DNA of 37,706 bases from Anaerolineae bacterium (GTDB lineage: Bacteria > Chloroflexota > Anaerolineae > Aggregatilineales > Phototrophicaceae). The notes beneath the pieces are model-generated. The model was given only the letters and a program-made list of their open reading frames with translations. It was not told the origin of the DNA and made no database searches. The translations under genes were made by a program, and so were the position numbers. Location of the stretch: contig JAGWBC010000002.1 in NCBI GenBank assembly GCA_021296115.1, forward strand, positions 3,086-40,791. Reading direction: 5' to 3'. This document shows, piece after piece, positions 1 through 36,946 of this stretch. Position 1 is the stretch's first letter; every line of letters begins with the position of its first letter.

Positions 1-2196
1 GGCATCGTGGACCTGCGCGGCGAATTCATCGACACGGCCTATTGGAGCCCGAGTGTGGTCACCGATGCGGCCGGCATGGCAACGATAGATCTGCGCCTGC
101 CGGATAATCTGACTACCTGGCGGCTGGATGCCCGCGCCTTGACCGAAGGGCGCGCCGGACGCCTGCTGGTCGGCGAGCAGACTTTCGATCTGCGCAGCAC
201 GCGTCCGCTGCTCATTCGCCCGCTGACGCCGCGCTTCTTCGTCGTGGGGGACAAGGCGCAGTTGGCGGCTATCATTAATAACAACACCGGCATGAATGTC
301 TCAGCCAGCGTTTCGCTTGAGACCAGCGCCGGTCTGAACCTGGCTGACGAGAGCTCGCTAGTCCAAGACCTGATGATTCCTGCCGGCGGCCGCAAGCGCC
401 TGACCTGGCTGGCGACGGTCGCGGATGTGGACACGGTCGCCCCTTCCTTTGTCGTGCGCAGCCAGGATGGCGCTTTCAGCGACGCCAGCATCTCACCGGT
501 CAGCGCAGACCGCGATGGCACGCTGCCGGTATACCGCTATGTAGCGCCGGCGGTGGTTGGCACGGCTGGAATGCTTGCGCAGGGTGGTGCGCGCGTGGAA
601 GCCCTGCGCTTGCCGCAGGACCGAACTGCGATCGACGGGCGGCTCAAGATTCGCTTGGATAAATCCTTGGCGGGCCTGACCGAAGAAAGCTTAACCTATC
701 TGGCAGCCGACACGCAGCATTTTCGCGAGTGTACCAGCACCATTGTCAGCCGATTCCTGCCCAACATCGTTGCCGTTCGCGCGCTTGATCAGATGGGCAT
801 TACGGATGCGGATTTGCGCGCCAGGCTGGATGGGCTGGTCACGGAAGGTTTGCAGGAACTCTACGCGCGGCAGTTAGCTGACGGCGGCTGGAGTTGGTGC
901 TCCTATCCCGAAGCGCAGGACTTGACGACAGCCTACGCGCTTTTGGGATTGGCCCAAGCCGCGGATGCCGGCTATCCGGTTGACGCCGCCGTCATCGGAC
1001 GCGCGCGGGCATATATTCGACAGGCCTTGATTAGGCCTTCACTGCGGCTGGAAAACTGGCGGCTGAATCGCCAGGCATTTATGTTGTACGCGCTGGCGCG
1101 ATCCGGCGCGGCTGATGTGGCGCGCAGCACGACGCTTTTCGAAAGCCGCGAGCGGCTGAACCTCGATGCCATCGCATTCCTGGCGCTGACGCTGCATAGC
1201 ATAAATCCGGAAGACGATTTTCGCCTGGAGGCCTTGACCCAGCTGATGCTTAACCGCGCCGTAACGCGGGCGACCGGAACCTTCTTTGAAGAGACTTATC
1301 AAGACCGCTGGAACTGGTCGTCGGATACCCGCTCGACAGCTCTGGTCTTAAATGCGCTCATCACGCTCCGACCTGAGAGCGAGCTGCTGCCCAATATCGT
1401 CAGACACCTGGCGAGCGCGCGCGTTGAACGAGGCGGCTGGGGCTCGCGCCAAGACGACGTCTGGTCAATCATCGCCTTGACGAACTGGATGCTGCACACT
1501 GGCGAATTCAAGGCCGATTATGCCTATAGCGTCTCCGTCAACGGTAGTGAAATCTTGCGCGACGCCGCCATGCCCGCTCATGAACAGCGAGCAGACGAGT
1601 TCAGCCTTGATTTCGCCGACTTGTTGATGTTGGAAACCAATACCATCGAATTCGAGCGCGGCGCTGGTGAAGGCGCCTTGTACTACACGGCTCATCTTCA
1701 CGCGAATCTTCCAGTGGACGAGATCCCGGCTGTCAATCGCGGTATTGATGTCACGCGCAGCTATACGCTTCTTGGGGATAACGCAGCGGGCTCAATTGAT
1801 CGCGCCGCCATTGGCGAAGCCGTGCAAGTTCGCTTGCGGCTGGTCGCGCCGCACAGCTTGCGCTACGTAGTAATAGAAGACTTCTTCCCCGCTGGCGCCG
1901 AAGCCATCAATCCCGAACTGGCGATTAGCCCGCAGTTGGGCACGCTGCCGGCTGGCGCGCGCATCGACCACGGCGACGCAGGTTGGGGATGGTGGTATTT
2001 CGATCATGTCGAGTTTCGCGATGAGAAGGCGGTCATCTACGCCAGCCATTTGCCGCCCGGCGTCTATGAGTATGTCTATAGCATCCGGCCCTCAGTCGCT
2101 GGCGAATATCAAGTGCTTCCGCCCGTCGCCAGGCAACTCTATTTCCCCGAGGTTTACGGGCGCGGAGAAGGCAGGTTGTTTACGATATCAGAGTAG
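1..2196 (+). CDS. Alpha-2-macroglobulin family protein, C-terminal part (5' truncated by window)
   Basis: The frame is open from base 1, so this is the 3' end of a larger gene; the GTG at 7 is internal. The first residues (DTAYWSPSVVTDAAGMA, then LPDNLTTWRLDARALTEG) match the A2M domain of bacterial alpha-2-macroglobulins. An alpha-toroid thioester-like domain follows, with GGWSW and GGWGSRQDDVWS repeats, and then the C-terminal receptor-binding-like region ending in a PPVARQLYFPEVYGRGEG stretch. Family members are large secreted or surface protease traps. At the thioester site (codons 730-741) the usual C-x-E-Q is C-T-S-T: the Cys is kept but the Glu and Gln are gone, so the internal thioester should not form. 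The gene ends 10 bp from a convergent gene. The family call is firm; a non-thioester trapping role is inferred. Confidence 0.9.
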   Translation, partial: GIVDLRGEFIDTAYWSPSVVTDAAGMATIDLRLPDNLTTWRLDARALTEGRAGRLLVGEQTFDLRSTRPLLIRPLTPRFFVVGDKAQLAAIINNNTGMNVSASVSLETSAGLNLADESSLVQDLMIPAGGRKRLTWLATVADVDTVAPSFVVRSQDGAFSDASISPVSADRDGTLPVYRYVAPAVVGTAGMLAQGGARVEALRLPQDRTAIDGRLKIRLDKSLAGLTEESLTYLAADTQHFRECTSTIVSRFLPNIVAVRALDQMGITDADLRARLDGLVTEGLQELYARQLADGGWSWCSYPEAQDLTTAYALLGLAQAADAGYPVDAAVIGRARAYIRQALIRPSLRLENWRLNRQAFMLYALARSGAADVARSTTLFESRERLNLDAIAFLALTLHSINPEDDFRLEALTQLMLNRAVTRATGTFFEETYQDRWNWSSDTRSTALVLNALITLRPESELLPNIVRHLASARVERGGWGSRQDDVWSIIALTNWMLHTGEFKADYAYSVSVNGSEILRDAAMPAHEQRADEFSLDFADLLMLETNTIEFERGAGEGALYYTAHLHANLPVDEIPAVNRGIDVTRSYTLLGDNAAGSIDRAAIGEAVQVRLRLVAPHSLRYVVIEDFFPAGAEAINPELAISPQLGTLPAGARIDHGDAGWGWWYFDHVEFRDEKAVIYASHLPPGVYEYVYSIRPSVAGEYQVLPPVARQLYFPEVYGRGEGRLFTISE

Positions 2197-31793: not shown

Positions 31794-32324
31794 ATGCTGA
31801 TGCGTCCAGACGAACCGCGTCAGCCTCGCCTGGTTAGCTGGGACGAGGTTGATCAGCTCATAGACGGTTTAATACCCCGCATTCAGCACCTCGGGCCTTT
31901 TGGCGCCATGGTCATGATCACGCGCGGCGGCGTTATCCCGGGCGGGTTATTGGCCGAAGCGCTGAGCATTCAGCACCTCTTGACCGCCTCGGTCGATTTC
32001 GTCGCCACGCGCCAGGCCGGCATGATGGCTTGGCCTACTTTCCTGCAGTTTCCGGATCCGGACTTGCTGCGGGGGAGGCGCACCTTGATCGTCGACGATG
32101 TATGGGGCAGCGGCCGTACCAGCATAGCCGTGCGCGAACGGGTTAATTCAGCCGGCGGGATTCCCTTCAACTGCGTGCTGCATTTCAATCCCTATCGAAC
32201 CATGTTCTCCAACATAAAGCCGGACCTTTACGGCGACGTAACCGATGCTTATGTCGTATACCCATGGGAGATAGACCGCGGATTGTTGGGACGGGGCTTC
32301 GGCGCCGCGCAGCCTGAAATCTAA
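31794..32324 (+). CDS. Type I phosphoribosyltransferase family protein
   Basis: 176 residues. The PRPP-binding motif is RTLIVDDVWGSGRTS, with a preceding ITRGGVIPGGLLAEALSI that matches the pyrophosphate loop of purine-type PRTases. The C-terminal VVYPWEIDRGL resembles the hood of xanthine/hypoxanthine PRTases (WP.E), so purine salvage is the likeliest role. Start: TTG 31776 would extend the frame, but ATG 31794 has AAGGA 8 nt before it and fits the promoter. Regulatory PRTases also look like this, so the substrate remains open. Confidence 0.8.
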   Translation: MLMRPDEPRQPRLVSWDEVDQLIDGLIPRIQHLGPFGAMVMITRGGVIPGGLLAEALSIQHLLTASVDFVATRQAGMMAWPTFLQFPDPDLLRGRRTLIVDDVWGSGRTSIAVRERVNSAGGIPFNCVLHFNPYRTMFSNIKPDLYGDVTDAYVVYPWEIDRGLLGRGFGAAQPEI

Positions 32325-32354
32325 GGCCGGCAGATTAATAACAAGTCCGACCGC

Positions 32355-32383
32355 GTGGCAATCTTCAGACTTTGCGCTATAAT
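32355..32383 (+). promoter_or_regulatory. Promoter of the first S1 gene
   Basis: GTGGCA (32355-32360), 17 bp, consensus TATAAT (32378-32383). It predicts a leader of about 225 nt. Confidence 0.5.
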
Positions 32384-32389
32384 GTTTTT

Positions 32390-32614
32390 TCCGACGGCTA
32401 CCAGATGTTTATGTCCGCTGGCAATTGACCGTGAAATACAGTATAGGGAATCCGCGCGTTGTAATGGAGATGTAAGGTGAATCCTATACTAATGCGGTTG
32501 CGATCGGAACGGCGTAGGTTCCGCCAGGAAACATTGTAGCAGAGAGCGCCTGTGGCATGACATTGGCTGAGGGCGCGATGATAACCTGCTTAAGCAGGAG
32601 GCAATCAAAATCCT
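32390..32614 (+). promoter_or_regulatory. Leader of the first S1 gene with ribosome site in a palindrome
   Basis: No ORF of note. Near the 3' end the perfect 14-nt palindrome CCTGCTTAAGCAGG (32585-32598) covers the first half of AGGAGG (32596-32601), which lies 13 nt before the ATG, an unusually long spacing. Folding would hide the ribosome site, as expected for translational feedback by S1. No known RNA family was recognised. Confidence 0.4.
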
Positions 32615-33805
32615 ATGAGTGAAGCGCAAGAACAAAATCCCCTGACTGACGAGAATTTCGAGGAGATGCTTGCCTCGTCCTTCGACTTTTCTTACACACC
32701 ACCCCGCCGTGGTGAAATCCGCGAAGCGACAATTCTGCAAATTGACGAGCGAGAGATCATAGTCGATCTCGGCGCCAAACAAGATGGCATTGTGCCATCG
32801 CAAGACCTGGAGCGTATGGAGGATGCTTTTCGGGAGAGCCTGGAAACAGGCGCCAGCGTTCCCGTTTATGTCGTCAATCCTCGCGACCAAAATGATAATC
32901 TGATTGTATCTATCAATATGGGCTTGCAGCGGTACGACTGGGAAAAAGCCCGCGAATTGCTGACATCTCAAGACGCGGTTGACGTTAAGGTCAGCGGATA
33001 CAACAAAGGCGGCGCGCTGGTTCGCTGGAATCGACTGGAAGGTTTCATTCCAAGTTCTCATTTGGTATCGACCAATTTGTCTGTTGATCGCAAAGAAGCG
33101 ATGACGCAATTGATTGGCAACACACTGGGCGTCAAAGTAATCGAAGTCGACCAGGATCGGCGTCGGCTGATCTTCAGCGAGCGTGAAGCGCAGAAGGAAT
33201 GGCGCGCCAAGCGCAAGGCGAAGCTGCTGGCGGAGTTGAACGTTGGCGATGTCGTGAACGGTGTTGTAACCGGCTTGCGCGATTTCGGCGCCTTTGTCAA
33301 CATCGGTGGGGCGGACGGCTTGATCCACGTCAGCGAGCTGGCTTGGCATCGGGTTGATCACCCGCGCGATATCCTGCATATCGGCGAGGAAATCGAAGTC
33401 TACGTGCTTAACCTGGATCGCCAGACAAACCGCATCGCGCTGAGCCGCAAACGCCTGCTCAATGATCCCTGGGACGATGCCCAATTCCGCTACCATGAAG
33501 GTCAGTTGGTATCGGGTTACGTGACCAACGTAGTGGATTTTGGCGCCTTCGTCGCTCTGGAAGACGGCCTGGAAGGCTTACTTCACCTCAGCGAAATGGG
33601 GGACGGCGCCTTGAAAGAACCCTACTCCTACGTGCAAAAGGGCGATCAACTGTCGCTGCGCATCAGCCATCTCGAACCGGAGAAGCGGCGGGTTGGCTTC
33701 ACCCAGCGCTGGGGTACCGAGCTCGGCGCTGACGAAGCAGGTGCTGGCGCTGCTGATTCCGAATCGCCGGAGATCGAAAGCGCGGAGGAATCGAAGCCGG
33801 ACTAG
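32615..33805 (+). CDS. rpsA: 30S ribosomal protein S1 homologue, four S1 domains (copy 1)
   Basis: 396 residues with four S1/OB domains. Their start points are about residue 29 (REATILQIDEREIIVDLG), 111 (VDVKVSGYNKGGALVRW), 211 (VNGVVTGLRDFGAFVNIGG) and 296 (VSGYVTNVVDFGAFVALED). Repeats 3 and 4 carry the full GAFV and GLIHVSEL or GLLHLSEM RNA-binding signature; repeats 1-2 are the more divergent ribosome-docking type. E. coli S1 has six domains; four are usual outside Proteobacteria. The C-terminus is acidic. The gene is followed by an 8-bp hairpin and then a second S1 gene. Confidence 0.92.
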   Translation: MSEAQEQNPLTDENFEEMLASSFDFSYTPPRRGEIREATILQIDEREIIVDLGAKQDGIVPSQDLERMEDAFRESLETGASVPVYVVNPRDQNDNLIVSINMGLQRYDWEKARELLTSQDAVDVKVSGYNKGGALVRWNRLEGFIPSSHLVSTNLSVDRKEAMTQLIGNTLGVKVIEVDQDRRRLIFSEREAQKEWRAKRKAKLLAELNVGDVVNGVVTGLRDFGAFVNIGGADGLIHVSELAWHRVDHPRDILHIGEEIEVYVLNLDRQTNRIALSRKRLLNDPWDDAQFRYHEGQLVSGYVTNVVDFGAFVALEDGLEGLLHLSEMGDGALKEPYSYVQKGDQLSLRISHLEPEKRRVGFTQRWGTELGADEAGAGAADSESPEIESAEESKPD

Positions 33806-33828
33806 CAGCTTGCAGCATTGTACATGCT

Positions 33829-33852
33829 AGCGCCTGTCATGCGGCAGGCGCT
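33829..33852 (+). terminator. Possible terminator hairpin after rpsA copy 1
   Basis: AGCGCCTG (33829-33836), 8-nt loop, CAGGCGCT (33845-33852). The stem is perfect, but only a short T-poor tail follows, so termination may be weak or Rho-assisted. Confidence 0.45.
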
Positions 33853-33876
33853 CGTTGATTTCCAGCGTCGGATATG

Positions 33877-33905
33877 TTGACAGCTTGCGGGCGCGACTGT
33901 ATAAT
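33877..33905 (+). promoter_or_regulatory. Full-consensus sigma70 promoter
   Basis: TTGACA (33877-33882), 17 bp, TATAAT (33900-33905): all twelve consensus bases and optimal spacing, the best promoter in the window. Transcription should begin near 33912. Confidence 0.85.
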
Positions 33906-33910
33906 TCGGC

Positions 33911-34019
33911 GCGATTTCGTAGGTGAGGCCGATTCGTCCGTTCAAGGCCCTAATCGCAGACGTCTTGGAAAGTCCGAGCCTGGTTGTTCAGCGAATTGCT
34001 GAGCCCGGGTTTTATTTTT
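33911..34019 (+). ncRNA. Structured leader or small RNA ending in an intrinsic terminator
   Basis: About 108 nt between a consensus promoter and a terminator. It has a closing stem GCGATT (33911-33916) with AATCGC (33952-33957), a hairpin CTTGGA-AAG-TCCGAG (33964-33978), and the terminator. It could be an attenuator or riboswitch controlling the second S1 gene, or a free small RNA. It matches no class I can name. From 34020 to 34142 the sequence has a GGCC-6-GGCC hairpin (34027-34040) and the ribosome site AGAGGAG, but no second promoter that I can see. Confidence 0.5.
33978..34019 (+). terminator. Intrinsic terminator/attenuator upstream of rpsA copy 2
   Basis: GCCTGG-TT-GT-TCAGC (33978-33992), loop GAATT, GCTGA-GC-CCGGGT (33998-34010), followed by TTTTATTTTT. 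About thirteen pairs with a 2-nt bulge and three G-T pairs. It ends 123 nt before the start codon. Confidence 0.75.
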
Positions 34020-34142
34020 GCTTGATGGCCGCGTGAGGCCAAACGTAGCCGGACAGCTGGGAGTGGTGGCGGCTTGCGATTGATCGGCGCGACGACGCCC
34101 ACCGGAAATCAATCCAATTTCGTAAGAGGAGAGTGAGTAGTT

Positions 34143-35453
34143 ATGCATACTGAATCTGCAGTAAATGAGTTGGCCGAAGAGATGGACTTTGCAGCGCTGT
34201 TGGAAGAATCGCTGGCCGCCAGCCATCTGGAGCGCGGCGATATCGTTAATGGAACCGTGCTTTCAGTAGACAGCCAGGGACTAATCGTCGATATCGGCTG
34301 GAAGCAAGATGGCATTGTGGCGCGTGGCGATATCGAGCGAATGGGTAGGACGACGGCCGATTACCAGGTGAACGCGGAAATCGCTGTAGCGGTGGTAAAT
34401 CTTAGCGACCACGACGGCAACCTGATTCTTTCCGCTGCGCAAGCCCGCCAGAACGAAGACTGGCTGCAGGCCGAAGAGTTCATGAACAGCGAGACGCTGT
34501 GGACGGGCGAGATCGCTGATACCAACAAGGGCGGCGTCATCGTGTCCTTCGGACATCTGCGCGGCTTTGTTCCCGCCAGCCATGTGCTGGACCTGCCGCG
34601 CGGCATGAAAGAAGATGAACGCATCGCATTCTTGCAGACGCTGGTGGGCAACGAAATCACGGTCAAAGTCATCGAGGTCAATCGCAAACGCCGCCGGCTG
34701 GTATTCAGTCAACTGGAAGCCGAACAGGAAAACCGCGCCGCGCGCAAGGAGGCGCTGTTGAGCGAGTTGGCCGAGGGCACATCGCGCAAGGGCGTGGTCA
34801 GCGGACTCTGCGATTTCGGCGCATTTGTTGACCTGGGCGGCGCCGACGGCTTGATCCATATCTCCGAATTGGCTTGGCATCGCGTTCGGCATCCCAGCCA
34901 GGTGGTCGCGGTAGGCGACGAAGTTGAGGTATACATCCTGAATCTGGACGCGCAGGGCAAGCGCATCGGGCTCAGCCTCAAGCGGCTGCAACCCAATCCC
35001 TGGAGCCTGGTGGACGACATGTATCACATCGGGCAACTGGTTGAGGGCGTGATCAGCCGGCTGGAATCTTTTGGCGCTTTCATCAGCCTGGAGCCGGGCA
35101 TTGAAGCCTTGCTGCACGTCAGCCAGATGTCGTCTAATCCTGACGAGAACCCGCTGCGTCATCTTTACGAGGGGCAGAAGCTGCTGATGCGAATAATCAG
35201 CATCGAAGCCGATCGGCAGCGCCTGGGCTTGAGCCTGACGGAAGTTACCGCCGCGGAAAAGGCGCAGTGGGATGAGCGTCAGATTGAGTTGGTCGCTGCA
35301 GCTGCGGAAGCGGCCCAGTTGGAAGCTGAGCAGAATGAGATCGCTGCGCAGGCCGAATCTGCCGACTTGCAGGAACAAAACGACGAACTGGCGCAGCACG
35401 AGCTGGAAGCCGAGGAAAACTCGCAGGCCCAACCGGCGCCAACTGAGAGTTAG
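34143..35453 (+). CDS. S1 RNA-binding domain protein, ribosomal protein S1 paralogue (copy 2)
   Basis: 436 residues with four S1 domains in the same order as copy 1: VNGTVLSVDSQGLIVDIGWK, WTGEIADTNKGGVIVSFGHL, RKGVVSGLCDFGAFVDLGG and VEGVISRLESFGAFISLEPG. Repeats 3-4 keep GLIHISELAWHR and ALLHVSQM. The C-terminal 75 residues are an extended Glu/Ala/Gln-rich tail, probably a helix or disordered. The two copies are clearly homologous but diverged. This one has its own promoter and attenuated leader, so it may serve different mRNAs or conditions. AGAGGAG lies about 11 nt before the ATG. Confidence 0.9.
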   Translation: MHTESAVNELAEEMDFAALLEESLAASHLERGDIVNGTVLSVDSQGLIVDIGWKQDGIVARGDIERMGRTTADYQVNAEIAVAVVNLSDHDGNLILSAAQARQNEDWLQAEEFMNSETLWTGEIADTNKGGVIVSFGHLRGFVPASHVLDLPRGMKEDERIAFLQTLVGNEITVKVIEVNRKRRRLVFSQLEAEQENRAARKEALLSELAEGTSRKGVVSGLCDFGAFVDLGGADGLIHISELAWHRVRHPSQVVAVGDEVEVYILNLDAQGKRIGLSLKRLQPNPWSLVDDMYHIGQLVEGVISRLESFGAFISLEPGIEALLHVSQMSSNPDENPLRHLYEGQKLLMRIISIEADRQRLGLSLTEVTAAEKAQWDERQIELVAAAAEAAQLEAEQNEIAAQAESADLQEQNDELAQHELEAEENSQAQPAPTES

Positions 35454-35532
35454 CCTGTTGCTGGCGGGAATTCCGATGTATACTGCAGGTTCACGAACGA
35501 CGACGAAATTACTAGAAGGTGGTGAGTAGAGC

Positions 35533-35724
35533 ATGGCTTCAGTCAAACTCAAGCCAGGCGAAAGTCAGGAACAGTTGTTGCGCCGTTTTCGCAAACGCGT
35601 AACCAACGCCGGCATATTGAGCACCGTTCGCCGCAAGCGCTGGCATATCTCCAAGAGCGAATTGCGCCGTATAGAGAAGAAGAAGGCGATCCGTCGTTCG
35701 CGGCGGCGTCAACGCAAAGTCTGA
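35533..35724 (+). CDS. rpsU: 30S ribosomal protein S21
   Basis: 63 residues, very basic. VKLKPGESQEQLLRRFRKRV near the N-terminus, then RRKRWHISKSELRRIEKKKA and a terminal Arg/Lys-rich tail are characteristic of bS21. S21 helps 30S subunits engage mRNA and neighbours S1 on the ribosome, so its place after two S1 genes makes sense. GGTGG lies before the ATG. A TATACT (35479-35484) with TTGCTG 15 bp upstream may be a weak promoter in the 79-bp gap. Confidence 0.95.
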   Translation: MASVKLKPGESQEQLLRRFRKRVTNAGILSTVRRKRWHISKSELRRIEKKKAIRRSRRRQRKV

Positions 35725-35782
35725 TTGCTACGCGGCTCAGACGAATCGACGGCGTACCACAGTTTGACTCAATCGCGCGGAT

Positions 35783-35811
35783 ATCCGCTGTGTCTCTAGT
35801 ATGCAGCGGAT
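35783..35811 (+). repeat. Inverted repeat between rpsU and infA
   Basis: ATCCGCTG (35783-35790), 13-nt spacer, CAGCGGAT (35804-35811). A perfect 8-bp inverted repeat ending 8 bp before the infA -10. It may be a terminator stem lacking a T-tract or an operator. Confidence 0.4.
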
Positions 35812-35819
35812 GGTTGCGT

Positions 35820-35825
35820 TATAAT
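35820..35825 (+). promoter_or_regulatory. -10 element of a candidate infA promoter
   Basis: Consensus TATAAT 31 bp before the infA start codon; no convincing -35 at 16-18 bp. The nearby inverted repeat occupies the -35 region, so an activator-dependent promoter is conceivable. Confidence 0.4.
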
Positions 35826-35856
35826 CGCGAAGCGAATATCAGAATTCAGGAGGCTT

Positions 35857-36093
35857 ATGGCTAAGAAAGAAGAAAAAATAGAAGTGGAAGGCACGGTAAT
35901 CGAGGCGCTGCCAAATACGCAGTTCATGGTGGAACTCGATAACGGGCATCGCGTCCTCTCTTATTTGTCGGGCAAAATGCGCAAGTTCTACATTCGAATT
36001 CTCTTGGGCGACCGTGTAAAGGTAGAGATGAGCCAGTACGATATGAATCGCGGCCGCATCATCTACCGGCACAAGGACAATGTGCGCGCCTGA
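35857..36093 (+). CDS. infA: Translation initiation factor IF-1
   Basis: 78 residues, a single OB fold. [20 protein letters not shown], then [20 protein letters not shown] and [21 protein letters not shown] are unmistakable. It binds the 30S A site and assists IF-2 and IF-3. AGGAGG is 5-6 nt before the ATG. In most bacteria infA lies in the alpha operon near rpmJ, rpsM and rpoA; here it stands between rpsU and a terminator, detached from ribosomal-protein operons. Confidence 0.97.
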
Positions 36094-36157
36094 TCGTCAA
36101 GCCGTCGTCGCTTGATAGGCGGCTAAGCCAAGGGAGCATCAACATGTTTCCCCTACA

Positions 36158-36198
36158 GAGCTAAGCAACGGGTCATCGCAAGATGGCTCGTTTTTTTT
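36158..36198 (+). terminator. Rho-independent terminator after infA
   Basis: CATC-GCAA-GATG (36174-36185) within GAGC (36158-36161) and GCTC (36186-36189), followed by G and eight T (36191-36198). The inner stem has a stable GNRA-type loop; the outer stem is asymmetric. Confidence 0.7.
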
Positions 36199-36229
36199 GC
36201 GAACTGTCGAGATGGCCGAGTCGAGTTGC

Positions 36230-36946
36230 TCAGCCCCGCTTAACGCCCCAGTGTATCGCCATCGTGCCGAACATCAGCGTCTTAAATTCGACATCGGAGA
36301 AACCCGCCACTTTGACCAGATCCGCCAGTTCCTGCGGGGTCTTGAATGCCTGCGTCGATTCAGGCAGATAACGGTAAGCGTCGCCGGCCGCTTTGCCGCC
36401 GACCAATCGGCCAACCAGCGGGATGCCATGTTTAAGGTGCAGCATGATCAGCGGTTTCAGCAGATTGTCGGGCGCTGGCGAGGTATCCAGGATGACGATG
36501 CGGCCTGCCGGCTTCAATACGCGCCACTGCTCGCCCAAGGCCCGCGCGATATCCACCACGTTTCGCATCAGATAACCTGAGACCACCGCGTCGAAACAGC
36601 TGTCGGCATAAGGCAGGCGCAGCGCATCGGCGCCCGTCCAGGCGACTCGCTGTCCAAATGGCGCGCGCCCTTTGCCCACTTGCATCATCCCCAGGGAGAA
36701 GTCGGCGCCCACGACACGGGCTGCCGGCGCGGTCTTCAGCGCCTGAAACGCGATGTCGCCCGTTCCCGCCGCGATATCCAGCAAGCTGCCTTCCGGCGCG
36801 AGGGCCGCCTTTTCCACCACGATTCGGCGCCATTTCATGTCTTGGCCGCCGCTGATGAGCCGATTTATCAGGTCGTAACGTTGCGCGATGCGGTTGAACA
36901 TCGCCTGCACATAGGCCTGCCGCTCTTCGCCGTCCAGTTGCGCCAT
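36230..36946 (-). CDS. menG: Demethylmenaquinone methyltransferase (MenG/UbiE)
   Basis: 238 residues of the UbiE/COQ5 family. Signatures are MFNRIAQRYDLINRLISGGQDMKWRR at the start, the SAM motif LLDIAAGTGDIAFQAL, FDAVVSGYLMRNVVD, and the C-terminal YRYLPESTQAFKTPQELADL plus GTMAIHWGVKRG. It performs the last C-methylation of menaquinone in the membrane-associated pathway, supplying the quinone used by complex I. No ubiquinone genes are seen, and menaquinone is usual in Chloroflexota. It starts 8 bp after the prmA stop, so the two form an operon. It converges with infA. Confidence 0.93.
   Translation of the reverse strand: MAQLDGEERQAYVQAMFNRIAQRYDLINRLISGGQDMKWRRIVVEKAALAPEGSLLDIAAGTGDIAFQALKTAPAARVVGADFSLGMMQVGKGRAPFGQRVAWTGADALRLPYADSCFDAVVSGYLMRNVVDIARALGEQWRVLKPAGRIVILDTSPAPDNLLKPLIMLHLKHGIPLVGRLVGGKAAGDAYRYLPESTQAFKTPQELADLVKVAGFSDVEFKTLMFGTMAIHWGVKRG

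Follow-up and report, generated by a model that had tools for sequence, protein, structure and literature searches.

Promoter, terminator and a covarying long-range helix form a candidate leader of an S1-domain gene in Anaerolineae

The region between two tandem S1-domain genes (S1-1 and S1-2) of the analysed window, the whole stretch of 37,706 nt, contains a consensus promoter, an intrinsic terminator and two short segments (the 5' box and the anti-box), which are predicted to form a long-range helix (P1) between the 5' end of the RNA and a place just before the Shine-Dalgarno sequence of S1-2; sequence comparison shows that promoter, terminator and box/anti-box pairing are conserved at S1-2. 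The preferred reading, held with moderate confidence, is that this region serves as the 5' leader in the mRNA of S1-2, composed of an attenuator and P1 and subject to feedback by S1 or by S1-carrying 30S. An earlier note on this DNA had proposed either an attenuator or riboswitch-like switch on the S1 gene or an independent small RNA; a cis-acting S1 leader with an attenuator is the part that finds support, while the small RNA and a metabolite riboswitch do not.

The genome from which the window was taken has a size of 3.9 Mb, and the order of the two S1 genes is kept in relatives, nearly all of the close ones (found by a search with the S1-2 protein) being metagenome bins. Going from S1-1 to S1-2, a terminator-like hairpin is followed by the promoter, the leader, the terminator and 123 nt that lead to the S1-2 start (Table 1). 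The leader lies directly 5' of the S1-domain gene in 34/34 genomes of the genus, and the S1-2 protein matches the NCBIfam ribosomal S1 models with scores below the model cut-offs, so that it may not be the ribosomal S1. The upstream gene S1-1 is itself preceded by a promoter-like sequence, GTGGCA-17-TATAAT (10/12 consensus, at 32355), and by a leader of about 230 nt (window 32355-32614), and a strong terminator-like hairpin with a T-run is found downstream of S1-2 on the + strand (36167-36192). In one genome of a sister genus (G267), a tRNA match of 62.4 bits is found on the minus strand between the S1 genes, on the 5' side of the S1-2 promoter (positions 117-192 of leader region L196); because this match is on the opposite strand, the S1 pair is possibly not one operon in that genome.

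Table 1. Features of the S1-1/S1-2 region, in window coordinates.
Feature	Position	Strand	Basis or remark
S1-1, upstream paralogue	32615..33805	+	396 aa, four S1 domains; context, outside the leader
Hairpin after S1-1, terminator-like, T-poor	33829..33852	+	context
Promoter TTGACA-17-TATAAT	33877..33905	+	12/12 consensus
Predicted prematurely terminated RNA, ~108 nt	33912..34019	+	promoter position and U-tract end; TSS inferred
5' box, the 5' side of P1	33913..33929	+	conserved block, covarying partner
Conserved middle segment	33930..33975	+	alignments A1 and A2; short blocks TCGTYCGT and CAGACG
Intrinsic terminator	33976..34019	+	hairpin 33976-34012, U-tract 34010-34019
Anti-box, 3' strand of P1	34097..34110	+	14 nt before the Shine-Dalgarno; pairs with the 5' box
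Shine-Dalgarno region of S1-2, AAGAGGAGAG	34124..34133	+	sequence
S1-2 gene	34143..35453	+	ORF of 436 aa; four S1 domains, each matched by Pfam S1

The perfect TTGACA-17-TATAAT promoter occurs three times in the genome, against none for a control pattern read backwards. It is present in 24 of the 24 genus copies that were first aligned from a nucleotide search, all of which also have the conserved blocks and the terminator, and ten further genomes of the genus, fetched by synteny, have both the leader and the promoter (10/10), with TATAAT or TACAAT as the -10 box. The length of about 108 nt given to the predicted RNA assumes that transcription would start some 7 nt downstream of the -10 box, near 33912, and end at the U-tract. 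By a uniform criterion, the terminator was detected in 33/34 genus leaders as compared with 23/340 dinucleotide shuffles, and its stem is paired in 98.2% of the alignment cells, with 13 double-change cells, while controls slid along the alignment pair in 24-66%. The only genus member lacking the terminator U-tract (leader L035 of genome G022) keeps the promoter and a degraded leader, and may represent a loss of attenuation. Between the terminator and 34143, the search gave no further sigma-70-like promoter; the three + strand sites in 32300-36300 are those at 32355, 32871 and 33877. The earlier note had described the perfect promoter, the terminator with its T-rich tail, the length of about 108 nt and the lack of another promoter before the gene, and all of these descriptions hold. 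Since the terminator-to-ATG distance is 49-50 nt in six genus genomes, transcription of S1-2 from either promoter would have to cross the terminator, a strong argument that S1-2 is read through it.

Orthologues of S1-2 were identified in 93 of the 98 genomes of the family, 34 of them constituting the genus. From the 59 orthologues outside the genus, the upstream DNA of 54 and of three more (L041-L043) was taken, and two (G274 and G278) were left out, one of them being at a contig edge. A TTGACA-16..18-TATAAT promoter precedes S1-2 in 40/54 of these family regions, as compared with 0/1080 shuffles, and almost all of the remaining regions deviate from it by one or two mismatches; one region in which no promoter was found (L206) was dropped from later tests, and alignment A3 was made without 14 of the 54, divergent clades among them. 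The RNA usually starts with a box like CGAUCUUAAGGAAGGGG; in most family leaders a GC-rich hairpin comes next, and then a terminator near +90 to +145. By the strict criterion, the terminator is present in 31/53 family leaders and was not found in the remaining 22/53 (24/530 in shuffles), and it is present in 13 of the 26 leaders obtained outside the genus by the search for relatives (three from the family and the rest from the order), against 7/260 shuffles, and was not found in the other 13. Across family and order, the sequence of the leader turns over while the promoter, often the terminator, and S1-2 stay together. Relatives have GGGGAG-type Shine-Dalgarno sites. Immediately 5' of the S1-2 start, many of the regions L184-L235 share an A-rich stretch and a ACCCUUGGGGG-type ribosome-binding sequence, possibly a second control element.

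The earlier note had given the RNA of about 108 nt a closed local fold, with a 6-bp closing stem and an internal hairpin. This fold was not confirmed: the single-sequence fold barely beats shuffles (z -1.19, 20/200 being equally good), in the genus alignments the 5' half of the leader shows no strong local fold that is conserved, and the 5' end has its conserved partner further downstream, in the anti-box. Searches for duplexes between the 5' box and the rest of the leader repeatedly pointed to one place, located past the terminator and a short way ahead of the S1 Shine-Dalgarno. In the window, the resulting P1 helix joins 33913-33918 to 34105-34110, 33922-33925 to 34100-34103 and 33927-33929 to 34097-34099. 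Within the 235-nt leader these pairs have base-pair probabilities of 0.77-0.999, and they were already present in the first MFE fold. The pairing was assessed by a permutation test, which does not model the species tree, in which each box was matched with its own downstream region or with those of other species. Own pairs are stronger in the genus (-17.66 versus -15.45 kcal/mol, sd 0.45, p 0.0002, n=34; with a wider target region, -16.61 versus -15.15, p 0.0004), in the family (-19.15 versus -15.50 kcal/mol, permutation sd 0.40, p 0.0002, n=53, with the same result for 48 non-redundant leaders) and in the order (-22.47 versus -18.94, sd 0.69, p 0.0002, n=18, the same for 15 non-redundant leaders), the order test covering leaders L044-L061, without L041-L043 and L062-L067. 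Ten control tests on other leader segments gave p values of 0.04-0.96.

A structural alignment of the family, in which a 12-sequence model was extended to 45 matches (10/45 rows being short, some on the wrong strand), has a covariation score of 0.250, as compared with 0.141 +/- 0.007 for shuffles and at most 0.077 for slid versions. In this alignment, which is fitted to the structure and does not model the species tree, 23/29 pairs changed on both sides; the pairs were listed apart for the 12 seed rows and for 23 full-length non-seed rows. When 40 family leaders were aligned with plain MAFFT, P1 came out misaligned. The covariation in relatives that the earlier note had named as a check was thus found, as compensatory changes in the terminator and as covariation of P1 in genus, family and order, and both elements show the conserved structure with compensatory changes by which ribosomal-protein leaders are judged.

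According to the preferred reading, the strong promoter would start transcription and part of the transcripts would stop at the intrinsic terminator as the RNA of about 108 nt, S1-2 being reached by read-through transcripts only. In the read-through RNA, the 5' box would pair with the anti-box, which lies shortly before the Shine-Dalgarno, so that P1 would close a domain holding the terminator hairpin and bring the 5' end of the RNA beside the ribosome-binding site. The S1 protein, or 30S carrying it, would be the regulator, and the leader would then act in feedback in the manner of ribosomal-protein leaders. The leader probably sets the amount of S1 protein made, and it is more tentatively suggested that read-through or translation is regulated. 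Autogenous control by S1 or S1-bearing 30S is the best guess by analogy, because the 5' box is U-rich and resembles a ribosome-binding site with a Shine-Dalgarno-like sequence, its start codon not being conserved, and because bS1, according to PMC10931766, is a known autogenous repressor in gammaproteobacteria that prefers U-rich sites 5' of the Shine-Dalgarno. The 3' strand of P1 follows the terminator, and for this reason P1 would be unable to act on it directly; control on the side of translation by way of P1, the end of which lies 14 nt ahead of the Shine-Dalgarno, is equally possible. Weighing against the preferred reading are the leaders of family and order in which the strict criterion gave no terminator, the loss of the terminator in G022, and the matches of S1-2 to ribosomal S1 models that stay under the cut-offs.

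A rather unlikely alternative is that the terminator sets a constant low yield, with no ligand and no feedback, and that P1 shields the 5' end of the mRNA or leaves the ribosome-binding site accessible; a terminator that is constant and unregulated would fit equally well. For a switch acting on termination or on access to the ribosome-binding site, the terminator is present, and the further pairings that were tried found no support. The candidate antiterminator, between GGUGAGG of the 5' box and CCGAGCC of the terminator arm (with tandem GA), gave -7.79 for own pairs and -7.86 for permuted ones (p 0.65) and was not favoured when growing RNAs were folded, a result that speaks for constant attenuation, as do the formation of P1 only once the terminator has been passed and the coupling of a strong promoter to a strong terminator. 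The anti-box was also tried as an anti-Shine-Dalgarno (own -10.52 versus permuted -11.25, p 0.98), a test with little power since the Shine-Dalgarno is too conserved. Against a device without a ligand, the conserved genus blocks outside both helices suggest a binder, and it can be argued, as a matter of reasoning, that a wasteful design kept over an order would be odd.

An extension of the preferred reading, considered improbable, is a two-level class of leaders in Anaerolineae, in which the box pairs with the anti-box in cis and the terminated RNA of about 108 nt, which carries the box without the anti-box, could target the same site of the full-length S1 mRNA in trans. If true, the by-product of the attenuator would regulate the very mRNA from which it derives, as a readout of how much free S1 or 30S is available.

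An independent small RNA, that is, a trans-acting gene of about 108 nt between the S1 genes with S1-2 expressed by read-through or from elsewhere, is regarded as quite improbable, although its own consensus promoter, terminator and defined length would suit it. A covariance model (R1), with 33 of the 34 genus leaders as its input, found exactly one copy in each of the 34/34 genus genomes, always at the S1-2 locus; the recovery of its 33 source leaders is by construction, while the single copy and the fixed locus are not. This occurrence tied to one gene argues against a free-standing small RNA, and so do the co-evolution of the RNA 5' end with the segment beside the S1-2 Shine-Dalgarno and the persistence of promoter, terminator and S1-2 in family and order while the sequence itself turns over. 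R1 had no match in 27 genomes of the family and order that belong to other genera, and matched 2/199 genomes across the class, both from the genus of the window; a second model (R2), built from 12 family leaders, matched 2/298 class genomes, both from one sister genus, and none of the genus members among the 298. Neither sequence model extends from one family to another, and the order-wide claim rests instead on position, promoter and terminator together with the P1 tests. A cis-acting S1-gene leader is much likelier than an independent small RNA, because of the single copy always at S1-2, the obligatory read-through and the covarying helix adjoining the Shine-Dalgarno.

A metabolite-binding riboswitch controlling S1-2 is very doubtful. 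The blocks that are conserved and unpaired might serve as a binding site; against this, Rfam searches gave no relevant match, there is no compact conserved fold and no metabolic gene lies downstream. No Rfam family reached the gathering score in the window, none appeared up to E=10 in 33800-34150, and no relevant match was obtained in 20 family and order leaders; the leader is not assigned by covariance-model match to any known Rfam riboswitch, leader or sRNA family, in line with the earlier remark that it fits no recognised class of RNA. Folding of the genus alignments (A2 without leader L035) gave no firm conserved structure for the middle segment. A leader-peptide attenuator, in which a ribosome stalling on a short ORF from the GTG of GGTGAGG would control the terminator, is hardly credible despite the GTG and the Shine-Dalgarno-like sequence near the 5' end and long open frames in some rows, since no short ORF is conserved before the terminator, the start codon being lost in whole clades (GGCGAG in one, GGAGAG in another) and the frame broken by one-base indels.

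The leader can be compared with known systems. Control of the S1 gene in several gammaproteobacterial families is translational, and the rpsA leader of these bacteria (PMC10931766) is similar in being a long leader of an S1 gene with S1 as the likely regulator. That leader has a specific fold and no canonical Shine-Dalgarno, whereas the S1-2 leader has a canonical one (AAGAGGAGAG at 34124-34133), a terminator within the leader and a long-range helix of its 5' end; as the lack of a canonical Shine-Dalgarno is a defining feature of the gammaproteobacterial rpsA type, the S1-2 leader is not of that type. The rplJL leader of Bacillus subtilis, where L10(L12)4 acts by transcription attenuation (PMC4538822), shares a ribosomal-protein-type gene and a leader terminator, and differs in the protein and in the RNA, and in that an antiterminator is unsupported in the S1-2 leader. 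The leader candidates of Eckert and Weinberg 2020 (PMC7247131) belong to the same class of ribosomal-protein leaders from comparative genomics, and that paper names conditional terminators and sequestration of the ribosome-binding site as mechanisms; the words 'rpsA', 'Chloroflexi' and 'Anaerolin' are all absent from its main text. A literature search, whose coverage misses most subscription journals, found no S1-gene leader in Chloroflexi. Taken with these systems, the S1-2 leader may work like a ribosomal-protein leader with an attenuator.

S1 is central to the choice of mRNA in many bacteria. The exact pairs of P1 are now named, and the question of feedback by S1 is open to a direct mutational test. 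A conserved terminator combined with a helix between the RNA 5' end and the ribosome-binding site in Chloroflexota would be a separate, long-kept way to control the supply of S1.
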